A stretch of DNA of 5,034 nt from Chloracidobacterium sp. UBA7659 (GTDB lineage: Bacteria > Acidobacteriota > Blastocatellia > Pyrinomonadales > Pyrinomonadaceae): assembly GCA_002483395.1 (NCBI GenBank), contig DLHV01000161.1, positions 1 through 5,034 on the forward strand. The letters run 5' to 3'. Shown here piece by piece: positions 1-5,034 of the stretch. A program made the position numbers and the translations under genes. Numbering within the stretch: position 1 is the first letter of the stretch; each line of letters begins with the position of its first letter. A model generated the notes under the pieces. That model was given only the letters and a program-made list of their open reading frames with translations, did no database searches and was not told where the DNA came from.

Positions 1-24
1 GTTGGTGTCGGAGTCGGTGTCGGA
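1..24 (-). repeat. Hexanucleotide-like tandem repeat encoding a Pro-Thr linker
   Basis: The first 23 bases are GTCGGW-type hexamers that encode alternating Pro and Thr on the minus strand (residues 663-669 of the protease). Such linkers separate domains in secreted enzymes. The repeat continues out of the window, so its copy number cannot be seen. Confidence 0.6.
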
Positions 25-2009
25 TCGGACGCCGCGATCTCAAAATCCGCGCCGGTTGCCTGATCGGAATTTAAGAGAAGTCCCCCCGTGAGTGACGAAC
101 CTATAAGTATTTGGGCTTCCGCCTGTGTATTTGTCGAGGTCGTCCCCAAAATATTTGTGCCGACGGCCGTGTTCACCTTGTCGAGCGAAAGTTTGATGGT
201 TATCTCGTTTCCGTTTATTTCACCGAAATCGGCCGGGCCGATCGTTTCCTGATTTTGCGTTCCGGTTGCGAGCGTCGTGATCTTTCCGTATTCGAAGGTC
301 GTCGCCGTTTCATCGATCGACGCGGAAACAAAAACCTCTGTTTGCCCAAAGGCCGAAGTCATCGTCCAGCGCATATTCGGCGTTTGCACCGATGCGTCCG
401 ACACTTTCAGGCGGTAAACGATCTGATTCGCCACGGCGTCATACTTGAAATAACCCTCGCGAATGTCCTGGGCGGTCGTGCCCAATTGGTCGTCCGCTGG
501 ATCGACGATCTGCGGTGCGTTCGGATCGTCCGACGGGAAGAGATCAGCCGGGTGTGGTACGAGCGACAACGACATTGCAGTGCGAACGGCGTTGTGGGCA
601 TCGACGTAACCGGCGCCGACGACACGTTCCTCGTATGGCATCGGCGTCGCCGTCTGCCGAAGGATCGTGACGATCTCGTCCGGTGTCAAAAGCGGGTTCG
701 CTTCCATCATCAAAGCAACAATTCCGCTCACTTGAGGCGTCGAAAAACTCGTCCCCTGCGAAGTTGTGTAATAGGGAAGAAAGGCGGGCGGGATTGTCGA
801 TAGATCGTTGGCACCGACAAAAACCGGAAGCGTCCCGGCAACGTTGGTTACTCCCGGGGCCTTCGAACGCGTGCTTTTGATATCGACTCCGGAACCTATG
901 ATGTCGGGCCGCAGATTCGGCGCAACCGACGGGTCGGCTGGCTGTCCGGCGGTGTCGCTGCCAGTTCCATTGTTCTCGCCGCGTGAGGAGAAGCCGGCGG
1001 GAGTGCCCAAACCTTGTTTTTCGCCCGCAGCTACCGAAATGACCCAGGGAGCCACTGAAAAAGGATTGATCGCTCCAGGTGTGTCGCCAACCGAATCAAT
1101 GCCATTTCCGGCCGCGAATACAACGGTGATGTTTCGGTCGTGCATCATGCGAGTGGCCGTGTTTATCGGGTCGTTCGGATCGTAGGGGTAATTTGCGACT
1201 ACGTCGCCCCAGGAGTTATTGCAGACCCGGATGTTGTATCTGAATTGATTTACGAGCGTGTATTCCATCGCCTGTACGATCGCGTATGTCGTTAACCCGT
1301 AGTCGTTGCCCGCTCTGATCCCGATCAATTTAGCTCCCGGCGCCATTCCCTGATACAGCCCGCCGGATGCCGCACCCGTACCGGCCGTAACGCCCGCTCC
1401 GAATGTGCCGTGACCGCCCTCGATGTCCGAGATTGGGACGTTTTCGACCGGGACGATCGGCAGGAAACCTGACGGCGGTTCCACCGGCACGTCGGCAGTA
1501 GCGAAATACACGTTTTGGGTAACATTCTGTCCAAGCTGTAGATCGGGGTGCGTCGCGTCGATTCCGGTGTCGATGTAGGCAACACCGACATTCCTGCCCG
1601 ATACGGGGAGGCCCTGGTTCAGAGCCGTCACCTGCATATCGCGAATCAGATTTTCGATGCCAGTGATAGTTCGGCCTTCGCGGTCAAACAGCTCAAAGCG
1701 GCGGTTTGCATAAAGCGAACGGACGCCGCTCTTTGTCTTTAAGGCGTTGAACTGCGTCCTGTTGATCTTCGTCAAAATCATCGGCAGTTGCTGCAGATAT
1801 CGTCCGCCCGAAATGCCGAGCGATTGCAGCATCAGGAAATCGGCACTCGACACCTGGTGGTCAAACGTAATGACGACCGGCGTCAGGACGAGCGGCGAAG
1901 CGTTGACCTGGCTGGACAGCAAGCCGTCAATGGACGGAGCCGCATGGACCGAGATGCCGACGGCGATTGTAAAAACAGCAGCTGCAAACAAATTGACGAT
2001 TTTTCTCAT
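1..2009 (-). CDS. Secreted subtilisin-like serine protease (peptidase family S8), 3' end outside window
   Basis: An uninterrupted minus-strand frame runs from ATG at 2009 off the left edge: 669 codons, no stop. The start is supported by GGGGAG (2018-2023) 8 nt upstream. Residues 1-24 form a signal peptide (MRK, hydrophobic core, likely cleavage in VHA-A), so the product is exported. Residues ~40-110 (VVITFD..., then KINRTQFNALKTKSGVRSLY) resemble an I9-type inhibitory propeptide. The catalytic domain has all S8 signatures: Asp147 in VAYIDTGID, His200 in GGHGTFGAGV, oxyanion Asn302 in VVFAAGN and Ser421 in GTSFSTPQVSG, followed by the LL-TPDEI-x-LR helix and a GAGYVDAHNAV end. A Pro-rich insert (~171-193) lies between Asp and His. 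Residues ~498-657 form a beta-rich region starting DPADDQ, then PTPTPTP at 663-669, presumably linking to a further module. An active endoprotease acting outside the cytoplasm is inferred; the substrate is unknown. It is transcribed away from the FG-GAP gene. Confidence 0.95.
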   Translation of the reverse strand, partial: MRKIVNLFAAAVFTIAVGISVHAAPSIDGLLSSQVNASPLVLTPVVITFDHQVSSADFLMLQSLGISGGRYLQQLPMILTKINRTQFNALKTKSGVRSLYANRRFELFDREGRTITGIENLIRDMQVTALNQGLPVSGRNVGVAYIDTGIDATHPDLQLGQNVTQNVYFATADVPVEPPSGFLPIVPVENVPISDIEGGHGTFGAGVTAGTGAASGGLYQGMAPGAKLIGIRAGNDYGLTTYAIVQAMEYTLVNQFRYNIRVCNNSWGDVVANYPYDPNDPINTATRMMHDRNITVVFAAGNGIDSVGDTPGAINPFSVAPWVISVAAGEKQGLGTPAGFSSRGENNGTGSDTAGQPADPSVAPNLRPDIIGSGVDIKSTRSKAPGVTNVAGTLPVFVGANDLSTIPPAFLPYYTTSQGTSFSTPQVSGIVALMMEANPLLTPDEIVTILRQTATPMPYEERVVGAGYVDAHNAVRTAMSLSLVPHPADLFPSDDPNAPQIVDPADDQLGTTAQDIREGYFKYDAVANQIVYRLKVSDASVQTPNMRWTMTSAFGQTEVFVSASIDETATTFEYGKITTLATGTQNQETIGPADFGEINGNEITIKLSLDKVNTAVGTNILGTTSTNTQAEAQILIGSSLTGGLLLNSDQATGADFEIAASDPTPTPTP

Positions 2010-2042: not shown

Positions 2043-2093
2043 TGCCGCAAGGTTACCCCCGACCACTTGAGAAATACTTGAGCCAGACTTGAG
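2043..2093 (-). promoter_or_regulatory. Three-copy 11-bp-phased CTCAAG regulatory site upstream of the protease
   Basis: Read on the minus strand, CTCAAG occurs at 2093-2088, 2082-2077 and 2071-2066, each separated by 5 nt, so the period is exactly 11 bp. The two gene-proximal copies with their spacer form CTCAAGTATTTCTCAAG, which recurs exactly at 2654-2670. After 15 nt comes TTGCGGCA (2050-2043), also shared with that second site. The last repeat ends 56 nt before the protease ATG. Same-face direct repeats of this period are known for OmpR/PhoB-type response regulators, so an activator or operator site is the likeliest role. A clear -10 box is not evident, although CATATT (2044-2039) is a weak candidate. 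The regulator itself is not in the window. Confidence 0.65.
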
Positions 2094-2109
2094 TTTAATT
2101 GAACAACAA

Positions 2110-2135
2110 AAAAGCACCCGCGATTGGGTGCTTTT
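2110..2135 (-). terminator. Rho-independent terminator (10-bp stem, 6-nt loop)
   Basis: AAAAGCACCC (2110-2119) pairs perfectly with GGGTGCTTTT (2126-2135) around the loop GCGATT. On the minus strand the stem is followed by a run of six T (2113-2108), and on the plus strand by TTTTGTATT, so the minus direction is better but both are possible. No intact gene ends just before it on either strand. It lies immediately upstream of the protease regulatory site, where it would insulate that gene from readthrough. Confidence 0.7.
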
Positions 2136-2254
2136 GTATTGCGCGAATTGTCGGGCGGCTTACGGATTAATCGTGACATACGTCGGGTCGATTCAGCCCG
2201 AATATTCTCAAGTGCGCCTTACACTTGCGTAGATGCAGGCTGGACCCGTCCGGA

Positions 2255-2286
2255 TGCGCCCCGCACTTAGCCATGTGCGCGGCGCA
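2255..2286. repeat. Hairpin: 11-bp stem, 8-nt loop
   Basis: TGCGCC (2255-2260) pairs with GGCGCA (2281-2286) and CGCAC (2262-2266) pairs with GTGCG (2275-2279). Only C2261 opposite C2280 is unpaired, and the loop is TTAGCCAT. There is no T-run on either side, so this is not a simple terminator. Confidence 0.6.
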
Positions 2287-2314
2287 CCTTGCGGCAGGCT
2301 AGGCCGTGTCGCTG

Positions 2315-2402
2315 CTACGGGCGGAAACGCGAGTGTGAACGAGCGTGCCTTCGTCGCCAGCATCGGATGCACGCTCCCTAACGGTCGCGTTTCTGCCCGT
2401 AG
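2315..2402. repeat. Long two-tier inverted repeat (18-bp outer, 8-bp inner stem)
   Basis: The 18-nt arm CTACGGGCGGAAACGCGA (2315-2332) matches the reverse complement of 2385-2402 at 17 of 18 positions. The single difference still allows G-U pairing if the plus strand is transcribed. Inside it, GAGCGTGC (2341-2348) pairs with GCACGCTC (2369-2376). The two stems are separated by 8 nt on both sides and enclose a 20-nt loop. This symmetry is far beyond chance for an 88-bp stretch and points to a palindromic mobile repeat or a folded RNA. Confidence 0.65.
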
Positions 2403-2470
2403 GCTCCGGGCGGAAGGCAGATGTTTATTGAGTTTCAGCTGATGTTTACCGGCATTCGGTAAGATTGCAC

Positions 2471-2504
2471 AGCCACGTAGCGGCGGAATGCCTTTAGCCG
2501 TGGG
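2471..2504. repeat. REP-like palindrome with GTAG tetranucleotide
   Basis: CCACG (2473-2477) pairs with CGTGG (2499-2503). Inside, GC (2480-2481) pairs with GC (2497-2498) and GGC (2482-2484) with GCC (2490-2492) around the loop GGAAT, leaving TA and TTTA bulges. GTAG lies at 2477-2480 and the 3' arm contains CTTTAGCCGTGGGG. A GTAG beside an imperfect palindrome is the hallmark of REP sequences mobilised by RAYT (TnpA-REP) transposases of the IS200/IS605 superfamily, and this is the basis of the call. No such transposase gene is in the window. Confidence 0.5.
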
Positions 2505-2510
2505 GTTTCA

Positions 2511-2653
2511 ATCGACGGCCGACTTTTGTCACTGGTAAATAGTACTGCCGCAAAAATTCCCACGAAGTTCGCCAGGAAATTCGCGTTCCGAGATAGAGTT
2601 TTCAGCCTGGTCGTATCGTCTACGCCCAGGTTTCCCCCGTCAACGGCACAAAT
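2511..2653. other. Intergenic stretch without recognisable features
   Basis: I find no convincing coding region, hairpin or RNA gene here. Short frames exist on both strands but have no Shine-Dalgarno sequence and no recognisable protein features. It ends at the regulatory repeat of the FG-GAP gene. Confidence 0.5.
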
Positions 2654-2696
2654 CTCAAGTATTTCTCAAGGCGCCTTGGATAAGGTGATTGCGGCA
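2654..2696 (+). promoter_or_regulatory. Two-copy 11-bp-phased CTCAAG regulatory site upstream of the FG-GAP gene
   Basis: CTCAAGTATTTCTCAAG at 2654-2670 is identical to the protease site, in the orientation that points to the plus-strand gene. The second half-site overlaps a perfect 12-bp palindrome CAAGGCGCCTTG (2667-2678), which the protease copy lacks. TTGCGGCA follows at 2689-2696, 18 nt after the repeat (15 nt in the protease copy). The distance from the repeat to the ATG at 2798 is 127 nt, so a long 5' leader is expected. The -10 box is not clear; A/T-rich sequence lies at 2697-2708. It is likely bound by the same regulator as the left-hand site. Confidence 0.6.
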
Positions 2697-2785
2697 CGAA
2701 AAAATAATTGCTGACACGCGATTTCGAGATTGTCAGAATATTTACATCTGATCTCTCGATAACTTTAAACAATTCAGTTCGTCCC

Positions 2786-2797: not shown

Positions 2798-3898
2798 ATG
2801 TCTCTGACCGGTTTGCTCGCAGCAGAAAATCGCAAAAAGCTTATTGTAAGCACATCCGCGCTCGTCCTCGTCTCGCTAGTCGCTCTTGGAGCGATGGCGA
2901 AAAACGGCTGGCTGCCATCGACCGACCCGCTGACCGGCCAAAAGACCGGCTGGTTCGGATCAAAAAGCTCCCCTCCTTACGAAGGAGGGGTGGCCGCGTC
3001 TCGCGGACGGGGTGGTTCTCTCGATCCGGCTCCGCCGCCATCAGCCACGCCGCAACTTTCGCGCGAATATTTATATGCTGGCCAAAAATTATTGGCTGTC
3101 GAAGACGCAAACGCCAACGCCGCCCCGCCCGCCGATCTCGCCGTCTGGCGGCCATCCACTGGGCAATGGTGGGTTCTCGGCGGCCCGGGTTCGGCCCAGA
3201 CAAACGCATCGTGGGGGCAGGCGGGCGATATTCCCGTTCCGGGCGACTACGACGGCGACGGCAAGACGGATTTCTCGATATTCAGGCCGTCGAACTACCA
3301 GTGGTACATTATCTTCAGCAGCAACAACGTAATCTCAAATTACGAGTTCGGAGCGGTGGGCGACAAACCGGCCCAGGCCGATTACGACGGCGATGGGCGA
3401 ACCGATGCCGCTGTTTTCCGTCCTTCGAATAACAATTGGTACGTACTCGGCACGACCAACGGTTTTTATTACAGCACCTGGGGCGATTCCGGCGACATCC
3501 CGGTTTCAGCCGATTACGACGGCGACGGCCGGGCCGACATCTCCGTCTGGCGCGGCTCGAACAAGACTTTTTATTCGGTCAACAGCAGCAACGGCAATAT
3601 CCAGACAATTACCTTTACCCAATCGAGCACGCAGCCGGTCTGTGGCGACTACGACGGCGACGGCAAAGCCGACTTTGCAGTAAGAAGCGGCAACACCTGG
3701 ACCATTCGTAAAAGCTCGAATACTCAAATAGATACGATCACGCCTACGTGGGAACAAGCCGCCGACACGCCCGTCCCGAACGACTACGACGGCGACGGCA
3801 ATTGGTACATCCGCCAAAGCGCCACCAACGGCTCCCTCCGCCAACAAGCCTGGGGCCAAAGCGGCGACATCCCCGTCCCAGCTTTATACAGAAGGTAG
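2798..3898 (+). CDS. Secreted or membrane-anchored FG-GAP/VCBS-type repeat protein
   Basis: This is a complete frame of 366 residues. Residues 12-34 are a basic start (RKK) plus hydrophobic segment ending AMA, so it is exported, either cleaved after Ala34 or left as an anchor. Residues ~35-110 are a low-complexity, Pro-rich linker that includes residues encoded by a palindromic DNA repeat. From Ala112 on, units of 44-45 residues follow the pattern AVWRPSxxxWYV...WGxxGDIPVPxDYDGDG(K/R)(T/A)D. Asp-rich loops DYDGDG start at residues 150, 195, 239, 284 and 329, resembling calcium-binding loops of FG-GAP/VCBS beta-propeller blades. The last unit is 34 residues, lacking about 11 after DYDGDG, and the protein ends GDIPVPALYRR. 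A propeller-like surface or extracellular binding protein is inferred; the ligand is unknown and no catalytic motif is visible. It may be co-transcribed with the RHS gene 85 bp downstream, as no terminator is evident between them. Confidence 0.9.
   Translation: MSLTGLLAAENRKKLIVSTSALVLVSLVALGAMAKNGWLPSTDPLTGQKTGWFGSKSSPPYEGGVAASRGRGGSLDPAPPPSATPQLSREYLYAGQKLLAVEDANANAAPPADLAVWRPSTGQWWVLGGPGSAQTNASWGQAGDIPVPGDYDGDGKTDFSIFRPSNYQWYIIFSSNNVISNYEFGAVGDKPAQADYDGDGRTDAAVFRPSNNNWYVLGTTNGFYYSTWGDSGDIPVSADYDGDGRADISVWRGSNKTFYSVNSSNGNIQTITFTQSSTQPVCGDYDGDGKADFAVRSGNTWTIRKSSNTQIDTITPTWEQAADTPVPNDYDGDGNWYIRQSATNGSLRQQAWGQSGDIPVPALYRR
2966..3017. repeat. Small palindromic repeat element lying in frame within the FG-GAP gene
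   Basis: CCCCTCCTT (2970-2978) and AAGGAGGGG (2982-2990) form a perfect 9-bp stem around ACG. TGG and a second stem CCGCG/CGCGG (2994-2998/3002-3006) with loop TCT follow, then ACGGGGTGGTT. This CCCCTCCTT-AAGGAGGGG-TGG-stem-GGGGTGGTT layout resembles dispersed intergenic repeats that I recall from many bacterial genomes. Here it codes for SSPPYEGGVAASRGRGGS (residues 57-74) in the linker between the anchor and the repeats, a place that tolerates insertions. That it is an insertion is inferred; no duplicated target site is obvious. Confidence 0.65.
3245..3898 (+). repeat. Tandem ~135-bp repeats encoding the DYDGDG units
   Basis: The segment coding for DYDGDG begins at 3245, 3380, 3512, 3647 and 3782, at intervals of 135, 132, 135 and 135 bp. 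The loop DNA is nearly identical between copies (GACTACGACGGCGACGGCAA at 3245, 3647 and 3782), while the intervening sequence has diverged. The final interval, to the aligned ALY codons at 3881, is 33 bp short. Identity is high enough at the loops to allow slippage or recombination between units. Confidence 0.85.
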
Positions 3899-3983: not shown

Positions 3984-5034
3984 ATGAAGAGAATCGTGTG
4001 GTCGGCATTAACAGTATTTGCGGTTATTGGCTTCAGCTTCGGGCAGGGCGCAGGCAATGAGAGAGCCGCCGACCGCACGTTGCGCGGGAGTGGACGCGTC
4101 AATGCTTCTACGCTAGGGATGGAATTCGACCTTCCCTTAGGCAGCTATTCGGGCCGCGGCATCAACGTTCCGATAAATCTTAGCTATTCCTCTAAACTTT
4201 GGCGCATGCAGTATACGGGTAATTCAAATATTCCGGGAAGCCAATCCAGCCCTTGCGATCCTGAGTATGAAGCACGATTTTCCGAAAATTCCGCGTCGGG
4301 TTGGACGACCAGCATGGCGGTGCCGTATATCGAGTACATCGGCGTGTCGGGACATTACGACGGTAATGGGAAACCAATGAGCACGACGAGTGATGTGGAC
4401 TGCCCGGGATACGGCGGCGGCGGTTCGCCAAGTATCAATTATATTCGGAGGCTGATGGTTCATCTTCCGGGTGGAGAGACACACGAGCTTCGTCCCGACG
4501 ATATCGCAATAACCGCTGCTTCGAGTGGAAGCAGCGGGACCAGTCCCTACAACGGCGACAACTGGAATGCGACGTATTACGCAGCCGACAGCTCGAATCT
4601 TAAGTACGTGCAGGACGCGGCCACGAGTACTTTCAAGCTTTTGATGCCCGACGGCTCTTTTTACAATTTTGACGCCACGACTCCGCACGGACAAAACAGG
4701 AAAGCCACTAAATTTACCGACCGCAACGGAAACTTCACAACTTACTACGGACCCGGGAGTGTCGATTCGAACGGCGTTACTCATCCTAACGGCTACTGGA
4801 AAGATACGTTGGGCAGAAATATATCTATTCCGCTTGGAAATACACAGGTAACAACGGCCGGAAATCCGCAAATTTATTCAATGCCGGGAATGACGGGAAC
4901 TTACAAATTTCAGTGGAAACTATTAAAGGGCAGCACGGCCACGGAAAGCGGGTTGACAAATTTCTCGCAGGATTTGAAGTATGGAGGGACTACTTACGTT
5001 TGCACACCTTCCGGTACACCGACTTACTGCACAC
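3984..5034 (+). CDS. Secreted RHS/YD-repeat family protein, N-terminal part only (3' end outside window)
   Basis: An open frame of 350 codons runs from ATG 3984 off the right edge, with GAGGA 8 nt upstream. Residues 1-20 (MKRI, then a hydrophobic stretch to FSFG) are a Sec-type signal peptide. Residues 44-73 (LGMEFDLPLGSYSGRGINVPINLSYSSKLW as overlapping motifs MEFDLPLG and INLSYSS) match the N-terminal beta region that precedes YD repeats in RHS-type proteins. MPDGSFYNFDA (221-231) and KFTDRNGNFTTYY (243-255) are the typical DG-x-x-x-x-F and DRNGN turns of this family. Full-length relatives usually exceed 1000 residues, with YD repeats, an RHS core and a variable C-terminal, sometimes toxic, module. 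None of these is in view, so toxin function cannot be judged. It has Cys at several positions, as is common in exported proteins. The family call is from recalled pattern, not a search. Confidence 0.8.
   Translation, partial: MKRIVWSALTVFAVIGFSFGQGAGNERAADRTLRGSGRVNASTLGMEFDLPLGSYSGRGINVPINLSYSSKLWRMQYTGNSNIPGSQSSPCDPEYEARFSENSASGWTTSMAVPYIEYIGVSGHYDGNGKPMSTTSDVDCPGYGGGGSPSINYIRRLMVHLPGGETHELRPDDIAITAASSGSSGTSPYNGDNWNATYYAADSSNLKYVQDAATSTFKLLMPDGSFYNFDATTPHGQNRKATKFTDRNGNFTTYYGPGSVDSNGVTHPNGYWKDTLGRNISIPLGNTQVTTAGNPQIYSMPGMTGTYKFQWKLLKGSTATESGLTNFSQDLKYGGTTYVCTPSGTPTYCT

Follow-up and report, generated by a model that had tools for sequence, protein, structure and literature searches.

We consider it very probable that the two identical boxes in this stretch of DNA (the window, which is the whole 5,034 nucleotides analyzed, contig C95:1-5034) are parts of two predicted promoters to which an AfsR-like (SARP) activator, the product of a gene on another contig, binds to switch them on; the genome is a 4.45-Mb assembly of 268 contigs that is 81.9% complete. 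Judged from sequence, the box is likely the operator of an inverted AfsR-like activator, and the window would hold two promoters of a protease regulon. A sequence-only reading of the same DNA had proposed a regulon-defining activator box and, as a prediction, that proposal was strengthened by what we observed: the box has one layout with a TANNNT at a fixed distance that suits a -10 element, it recurs in a constant orientation before genes of S8, M36, M12B and M4 peptidases and before the operon of the regulator, and it tracks the regulator gene from genome to genome. Binding and activation by that regulator are what we infer.

The window contains a divergent gene pair, a subtilase gene on the minus strand (3..2009; Peptidase_S8, 7.6e-37; truncated by the contig end, with an export-like N-terminus by eye) and, on the plus strand, a gene for an FG-GAP repeat protein of 366 aa with an N-terminal hydrophobic segment (2798..3898), which is the predicted target of the second promoter. 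As the sequence-only reading had noted, the identical 17-mer CTCAAGTATTTCTCAAG lies at 2066-2082 on the minus strand (half-sites 2077-2082 and 2066-2071) and at 2654-2670 on the plus strand, each copy facing its own gene, and its view that chance would hardly give such a pair in 5 kb is borne out by simple arithmetic with equal base frequencies (p ~0.0015). The protease promoter has, in addition, an overlapping upstream box, CTCAAGTCTGGCTCAAG, at 2077..2093 (minus), which adds a third half-site, CTCAAG at 2088-2093, in 11-bp phase; overlapping boxes are also found upstream of related S8 genes in G001, G008 and G011. Exactly 10 nt past each box there is a TANNNT, which had escaped the earlier reading: the predicted -10 elements are TAACCT at 2050..2055 (minus) for the protease promoter and TAAGGT at 2681..2686 (plus) for the FG-GAP promoter. 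That reading had pointed instead to a shared TTGCGGCA, which is indeed present 15 and 18 nt past the boxes but is not conserved; it accompanies just 3 of 53 boxes (both sites in the window plus a single site in G010), and we therefore treat it as lying outside the element.

The resulting layout, CTCAAG-N5-CTCAAG-N10-TANNNT, is a 33-bp promoter pattern. Among 53 promoter-proximal boxes (at most one mismatch; loci from 14 regulator genomes), TANNNT occurs at offset 10 in 47, any other offset from 0 to 24 has at most two, and the maximum in 2000 shuffles was eight. That count covers 23 regulator-genome loci and excludes boxes with a further box (up to two mismatches) within 60 nt downstream; L100, L101, L108, L110, L111 and the extra G000 contigs L113-L120 lie outside it. 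A recount over 35 loci of the 14 regulator genomes, which omits L114 as it mostly overlaps L007, gave 49 of 61 boxes, and following clusters to the last box with two mismatches gave 53 of 65. The loci were chosen by box or regulator searches and not by the -10. The 12 of 61 boxes without a TANNNT at offset 10 include the regulator-operon boxes of G006 and G010. As for genomes without the regulator, none of the 26 exact pairs in 17 of them has a TANNNT at offset 10 and 18 of the 26 lie inside ORFs of at least 100 aa, nine of the pairs having been judged on pieces of about 0.7 kb. Random positions genome-wide, the outcome that the sequence-only reading had set against its own proposal, is not what regulator-bearing genomes display; in these 17 regulator-less genomes, however, most pairs do fall inside ORFs and none has a -10.

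The spacer between box and -10 is rich in T. In a wider set of 103 composite sites, T was found at position 7 in 75, at position 9 in 100 and at position 10 in 93; the half-site and -10 letters of this set were selected for and so are not evidence. The composite profile of the 103 sites has no TTGACA at the usual distance. Boxes also tend to occur in series: across the 50 loci scanned, 15 cases have a second box at a distance of 31-32 bp, and there are 27 instances of 11-bp steps. When CTCAAG pairs were tallied by spacer in six genomes, spacer 5 accounted for 20 of the 130 pairs listed and out-of-frame spacers for 0 to 7 each, except spacer 1, with 21 of the 130 listed, largely from tandem heptamers. 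Such tandem heptamers (ACTCAAG/TCTCAAG), with a 7-bp spacing unlike that of the box, are present in G000:C42, C153, C169 and C221 and in G013:C12.

A search of the whole genome for CTCAAG-N5-CTCAAG, the check that had been suggested for the box, returned six exact pairs versus two for the reversed control, and all six were in just two regions, the window and contig C66, with three pairs each. Allowing one mismatch revealed more boxes on C66. The order there includes an S8/SLH gene, a 281-aa gene with an export-like N-terminus, two back-to-back boxes, an operon of a 264-aa lone NTPase and the 1087-aa regulator, an S8/SLH protease gene and a gene with an FTP propeptide domain (M36-like), each of the last two genes having a pair of boxes 31 bp apart. 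The suggestion that the box serves secreted proteins held for peptidase genes whose products have export-like N-termini (throughout, secreted or exported status was judged by eye from N-termini), but not for secreted proteins in general. Of 17 S8 domains in this genome, two are encoded by genes directly preceded by a box, one lies behind a boxed gene and 13 have no box, and we rejected a general secretion box. The S8 check allowed up to two mismatches on both strands in loci of 2.6-4.0 kb; C66:11297 was counted as the third member because it follows the boxed 281-aa gene and is read the same way, and C267:32365 has just a poor two-mismatch match ~470 bp upstream. Two-mismatch composite matches genome-wide (10/17 places; control total 22) were at background level and were excluded as members.

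What kind of genes follow the composite sites in other genomes? In 63 fetched loci, 116 composite sites led to 93 downstream genes (at least 120 aa, within 550 bp), the loci having been chosen by site or regulator and not by gene content, and many of them being orthologous. Twenty-six of the 93 genes fall in the cluster of lone NTPases that head the regulator operon, one of these being the regulator itself in G041 with a composite site 411 bp upstream, and 10 encode a small exported protein. Among the 54 downstream proteins longer than 350 aa, S8 peptidases numbered 30, M36 eight, M12B two and M4 one, that is 41 of 54 if no protein matched two families; others have BNR, Calx-beta or FG-GAP repeats. 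Counted among the 54 are the G041 regulator and one gene whose site, lying within a coding frame, looks false (G072:C24 72314). Relatives of the window's FG-GAP gene were absent from the 93 downstream genes, and a search of the genome collection with its protein found just four distant loci.

The regulator on C66 begins with an NTPase-TPR region and ends with a winged-helix/BTAD (SARP) region at ~836-1087. Its residues 8-541 match NCBIfam MalT at 225 bits, against an equivalog cut-off of 537, and residues 832-1083 match the SARP part of NCBIfam AfsR at 67 bits, against a cut-off of 1430. Pfam identified AAA, TPR and BTAD domains (BTAD 4.9e-17, 63 bits) and found neither a LuxR-type HTH at the C-terminus nor a receiver domain. 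The protein is the sole strong BTAD match in the genome (69 bits), the second being at 22.8 bits, and it has the order of an OmpR-like winged helix followed by BTAD by which SARP-type regulators are recognized. In the PDB it matches AfsR (2.5e-6 over both domains). The C-terminal domain of the G006 orthologue (253 residues), folded from an alignment of 26 relatives, gave a predicted model with a pLDDT of 92, for which the best structural matches were AfsR chains (E 9e-12 to 5e-11, TM 0.78-0.80), then EmbR. Aligned to AfsR in the numbering of PMC10936776, the window genome's regulator keeps W74, P79, S91, R94 and K95 and has H, P and H in place of R87, T88 and R92, so that base-contacting residues of AfsR (T88 and R92) are changed; Q48 falls in an uncertain stretch of the alignment and P79 is variable among the relatives. 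The recognition helix, KNFHPT[IV]SHIRKALN, is nearly invariant among relatives, with variants in G041 and G081, and such a constant helix would be in keeping with a constant CTCAAG.

The first gene of the regulator operon, directly before the regulator gene, encodes a lone MalT-like NTPase without a DNA-binding domain. Proteins of this type (about 250-290 aa; for example, L007:6494-7288) were seen in 25 scanned loci, and they are about 25-30% identical to the N-terminus of the regulators themselves; Walker A is kept in 24 of 25 and Walker B is readable by a simple pattern in 19 of 25. Back-to-back boxes 24-47 bp apart accompany the regulator operon in 15 of 50 loci scanned. Of the 14 regulator loci in which that end, or the sequence close to it, is retained, 12 are among these 15, and the others come from related genomes.

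Support that box and regulator belong together can be found in a survey of 162 genomes of the same class, in which the regulator was scored at E up to 1e-20 and the weak or partial matches in G040 and G044 were kept as positive. The 60 genomes with the regulator contain 216 composite sites (one mismatch allowed) versus 19 for the reversed control, and the other 102 contain 34 versus 28. At least two composite sites are present in 53 of 60 genomes with the regulator and in eight of 102 without it (Fisher 3e-26, relatedness ignored); in the window's genus the corresponding counts are 11 of 11 versus 0 of 30. Because Fisher values ignore relatedness, the safer figure is the contrast within genera that hold both states, and in 11 of 12 of these the regulator genomes have more sites. 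Exceptions were seen in both directions. G157, G040 and G044, the last two being the weak or partial matches, have the regulator and no sites, and two or three sites occur in the absence of the regulator in G078, G121, G126, G131, G144, G148, G066 and G058. When the 23 regulator-less genomes with sites were searched again, with a different orthologue as query, no close orthologue emerged, and distant BTAD matches only (22-36% identity) turned up in five of the 23. Completeness is 62% for G121 and 75% for G126, but 99% for G131. G038, which belongs to another family and lacks the regulator, contains six exact pairs, two triplets among them, and a -10 at offset 10 follows none of these. Its triplets, L226 (G038:C74) and L228 (G038:C107), are in 11-bp phase with spacers AAAAG/TTTTT and AATTT/AATTT, and the start codon ATG closely follows them; possibly they reflect another use of the same repeat.

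How does this arrangement compare with known systems? SARPs recognize direct repeats with a period of 11 or 22 bp close to the -10 (PMC10936776, PMC5930380), AfsR binds as a side-by-side dimer that substitutes for the -35 and provides a docking point for sigma region 4 (PMC10936776), and PimR recognizes three CGGCAAG repeats with 4-bp spacers (PMC5930380). The regulator-associated boxes, as predicted sites, have the 11-bp period. Here 10 nt separate the hexamer from the -10 (49 of 61) versus the 8 bp quoted for SARPs, and the two figures agree only when the repeat is given a length of 8 bp. The likeness to AfsR and the afs box of Streptomyces coelicolor extends to the winged helix with BTAD, the NOD and TPR regions, the predicted fold of the C-terminal domain (TM about 0.8) and a pair of 11-bp direct repeats that covers the -35, upstream of the -10. 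Unlike AfsR, the SARP domain is C-terminal here, the repeat is CTCAAG, base-contacting residues are changed, the targets are mainly proteases rather than afsS, and the host is an acidobacterium related to Pyrinomonadaceae; the named close relatives of the regulator come from sources called Pyrinomonadaceae or Acidobacteria bacterium, and we take the host to belong to that family. PimR (SARP-LAL, Streptomyces natalensis) resembles our system in three repeats at an 11-bp period, as before the window protease, in repeats that end in CAAG and in being a large regulator, but its SARP domain is N-terminal, its main operator is clear of the -35 and its target is an antifungal pathway regulator. With MalT, an ATP-dependent activator, the regulator shares the N-terminal NTPase and TPR region, but it scores below the equivalog cut-off and has a SARP domain in place of the C-terminal LuxR-type HTH. 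The C-terminal position of its SARP domain means that, in layout, it is not a large SARP of the AfsR or PimR type, and it is not a MalT, since the LuxR HTH was not found; by analogy it probably works like a SARP. The relevant SARP literature that we found concerns Streptomyces, and our search of the open-licence literature, with subscription papers outside its range, found no description of the box, the regulator or the regulon.

Because the window sites share the repeat form of SARP and PimR sites, we infer a mechanism in which two or three C-terminal winged-helix/BTAD domains of the regulator would line up next to one another on the half-sites, whose 11-bp phase gives each domain its own turn of the helix. 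The bound domains would stand in for the missing -35 by holding sigma region 4, as in the sigma-adaptation mechanism of AfsR, and RNA polymerase would be recruited to a promoter that has no -35, raising expression of the regulator's own operon and of a group of secreted proteases. Binding may be gated by the MalT-like NTPase and TPR region at the N-terminus until a signal releases that region, the boxes at the regulator operon could make the switch self-amplifying, and the lone MalT-like NTPase might tune it by joining the oligomer.

Would another protein serve as well? OmpR/PhoB-type regulators, too, bind 11-bp direct repeats placed ~10 bp before the -10, as in the pho box, and geometry alone would fit a response regulator of this type, or some other winged-helix activator, that binds the box and has the SARP gene merely as a target. 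The SARP operon does itself carry the box, and some genomes have sites and no detected SARP of this type. We nevertheless regard this explanation as improbable, as the number of sites tracks the SARP gene in nearly all genera with both states (the 11 of 12 above) and just two of the 93 downstream genes look like lone response regulators, in one genome each (G104:C16, by Pfam; G056:C111, by eye).

Still less probable, in our estimation, is that the same protein acts as a repressor or dual regulator, with half-sites over the -35 region excluding RNA polymerase. The box does occupy the place of the -35 and the composite profile has no visible TTGACA, but the lack of a -35 together with a fixed distance from box to -10 favors an activator, and AfsR and PimR are activators. 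Finally, the repeats could have nothing to do with transcription and be due to chance or to a dispersed DNA element, a view toward which the tandem CTCAAG heptamers that give the spacer-1 pairs (21 of the 130 listed) and the position of the pair mostly inside ORFs in regulator-less genomes might be thought to point. This idea has next to no probability left: in regulator genomes the orientation, the gene-start position and the TANNNT offset are fixed while neighboring letters vary, and we take it as refuted by the -10 spacing, the genome association and the regulator-less control.

Acidobacteriota are abundant soil bacteria whose gene regulation has been little studied, and here a 33-bp promoter pattern, one regulator and a likely target set are predicted together from sequence. 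If activation by the AfsR-like regulator is correct, activation in the manner of SARPs, familiar from the antibiotic genes of actinomycetes, would also apply to proteases in another phylum, with the order of the domains reversed and the regulator paired with an unexplained lone NTPase. More tentatively, and as something we hold possible rather than probable, Acidobacteriota may control the digestion of extracellular protein by a signal-gated master switch, in which an inverted-AfsR MalT-SARP hybrid ATPase and a truncated NTPase without a DNA-binding domain, acting as co-sensor or brake, would drive secreted S8, M36, M12B and M4 proteases in a self-amplifying burst, their promoters lacking a -35 and being unreadable in the absence of the switch.

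Several other features of the window deserve mention. A sigma-70-like promoter downstream of the FG-GAP gene's box counts against the AfsR-like activator as the explanation at that gene. A 41-bp block, 88% identical between window 2701-2741 and G000:C252:1-41 (minus), holds a sigma-70-like CTGACA/TTGACA-N17-CAGAAT and is situated ~30 bp past the box at the FG-GAP gene and ~190 bp past the box on C252, which may be the start of an FG-GAP paralogue truncated by the contig end; a third copy of its 31-letter core was not found in the genome at up to three mismatches. An Rfam search of the window returned no family, and the reading of the box as an RNA element was dropped. A terminator-like hairpin, AAAAGCACCC-N6-GGGTGCTTTT (2110-2135, minus), immediately precedes the protease promoter's three half-sites and is of a type for which ~1 match is expected by chance in that region. 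The further gene at 3984-5034, with an export-like N-terminus and no match in Pfam or NCBIfam searches, may be on the same transcript as the FG-GAP gene. Within the FG-GAP gene, and in frame, a GC-rich palindromic stretch (CTCCCCTCCTTACGAAGGAGGGG...) at 2968-3016 resembles a repeat element inserted in coding sequence.
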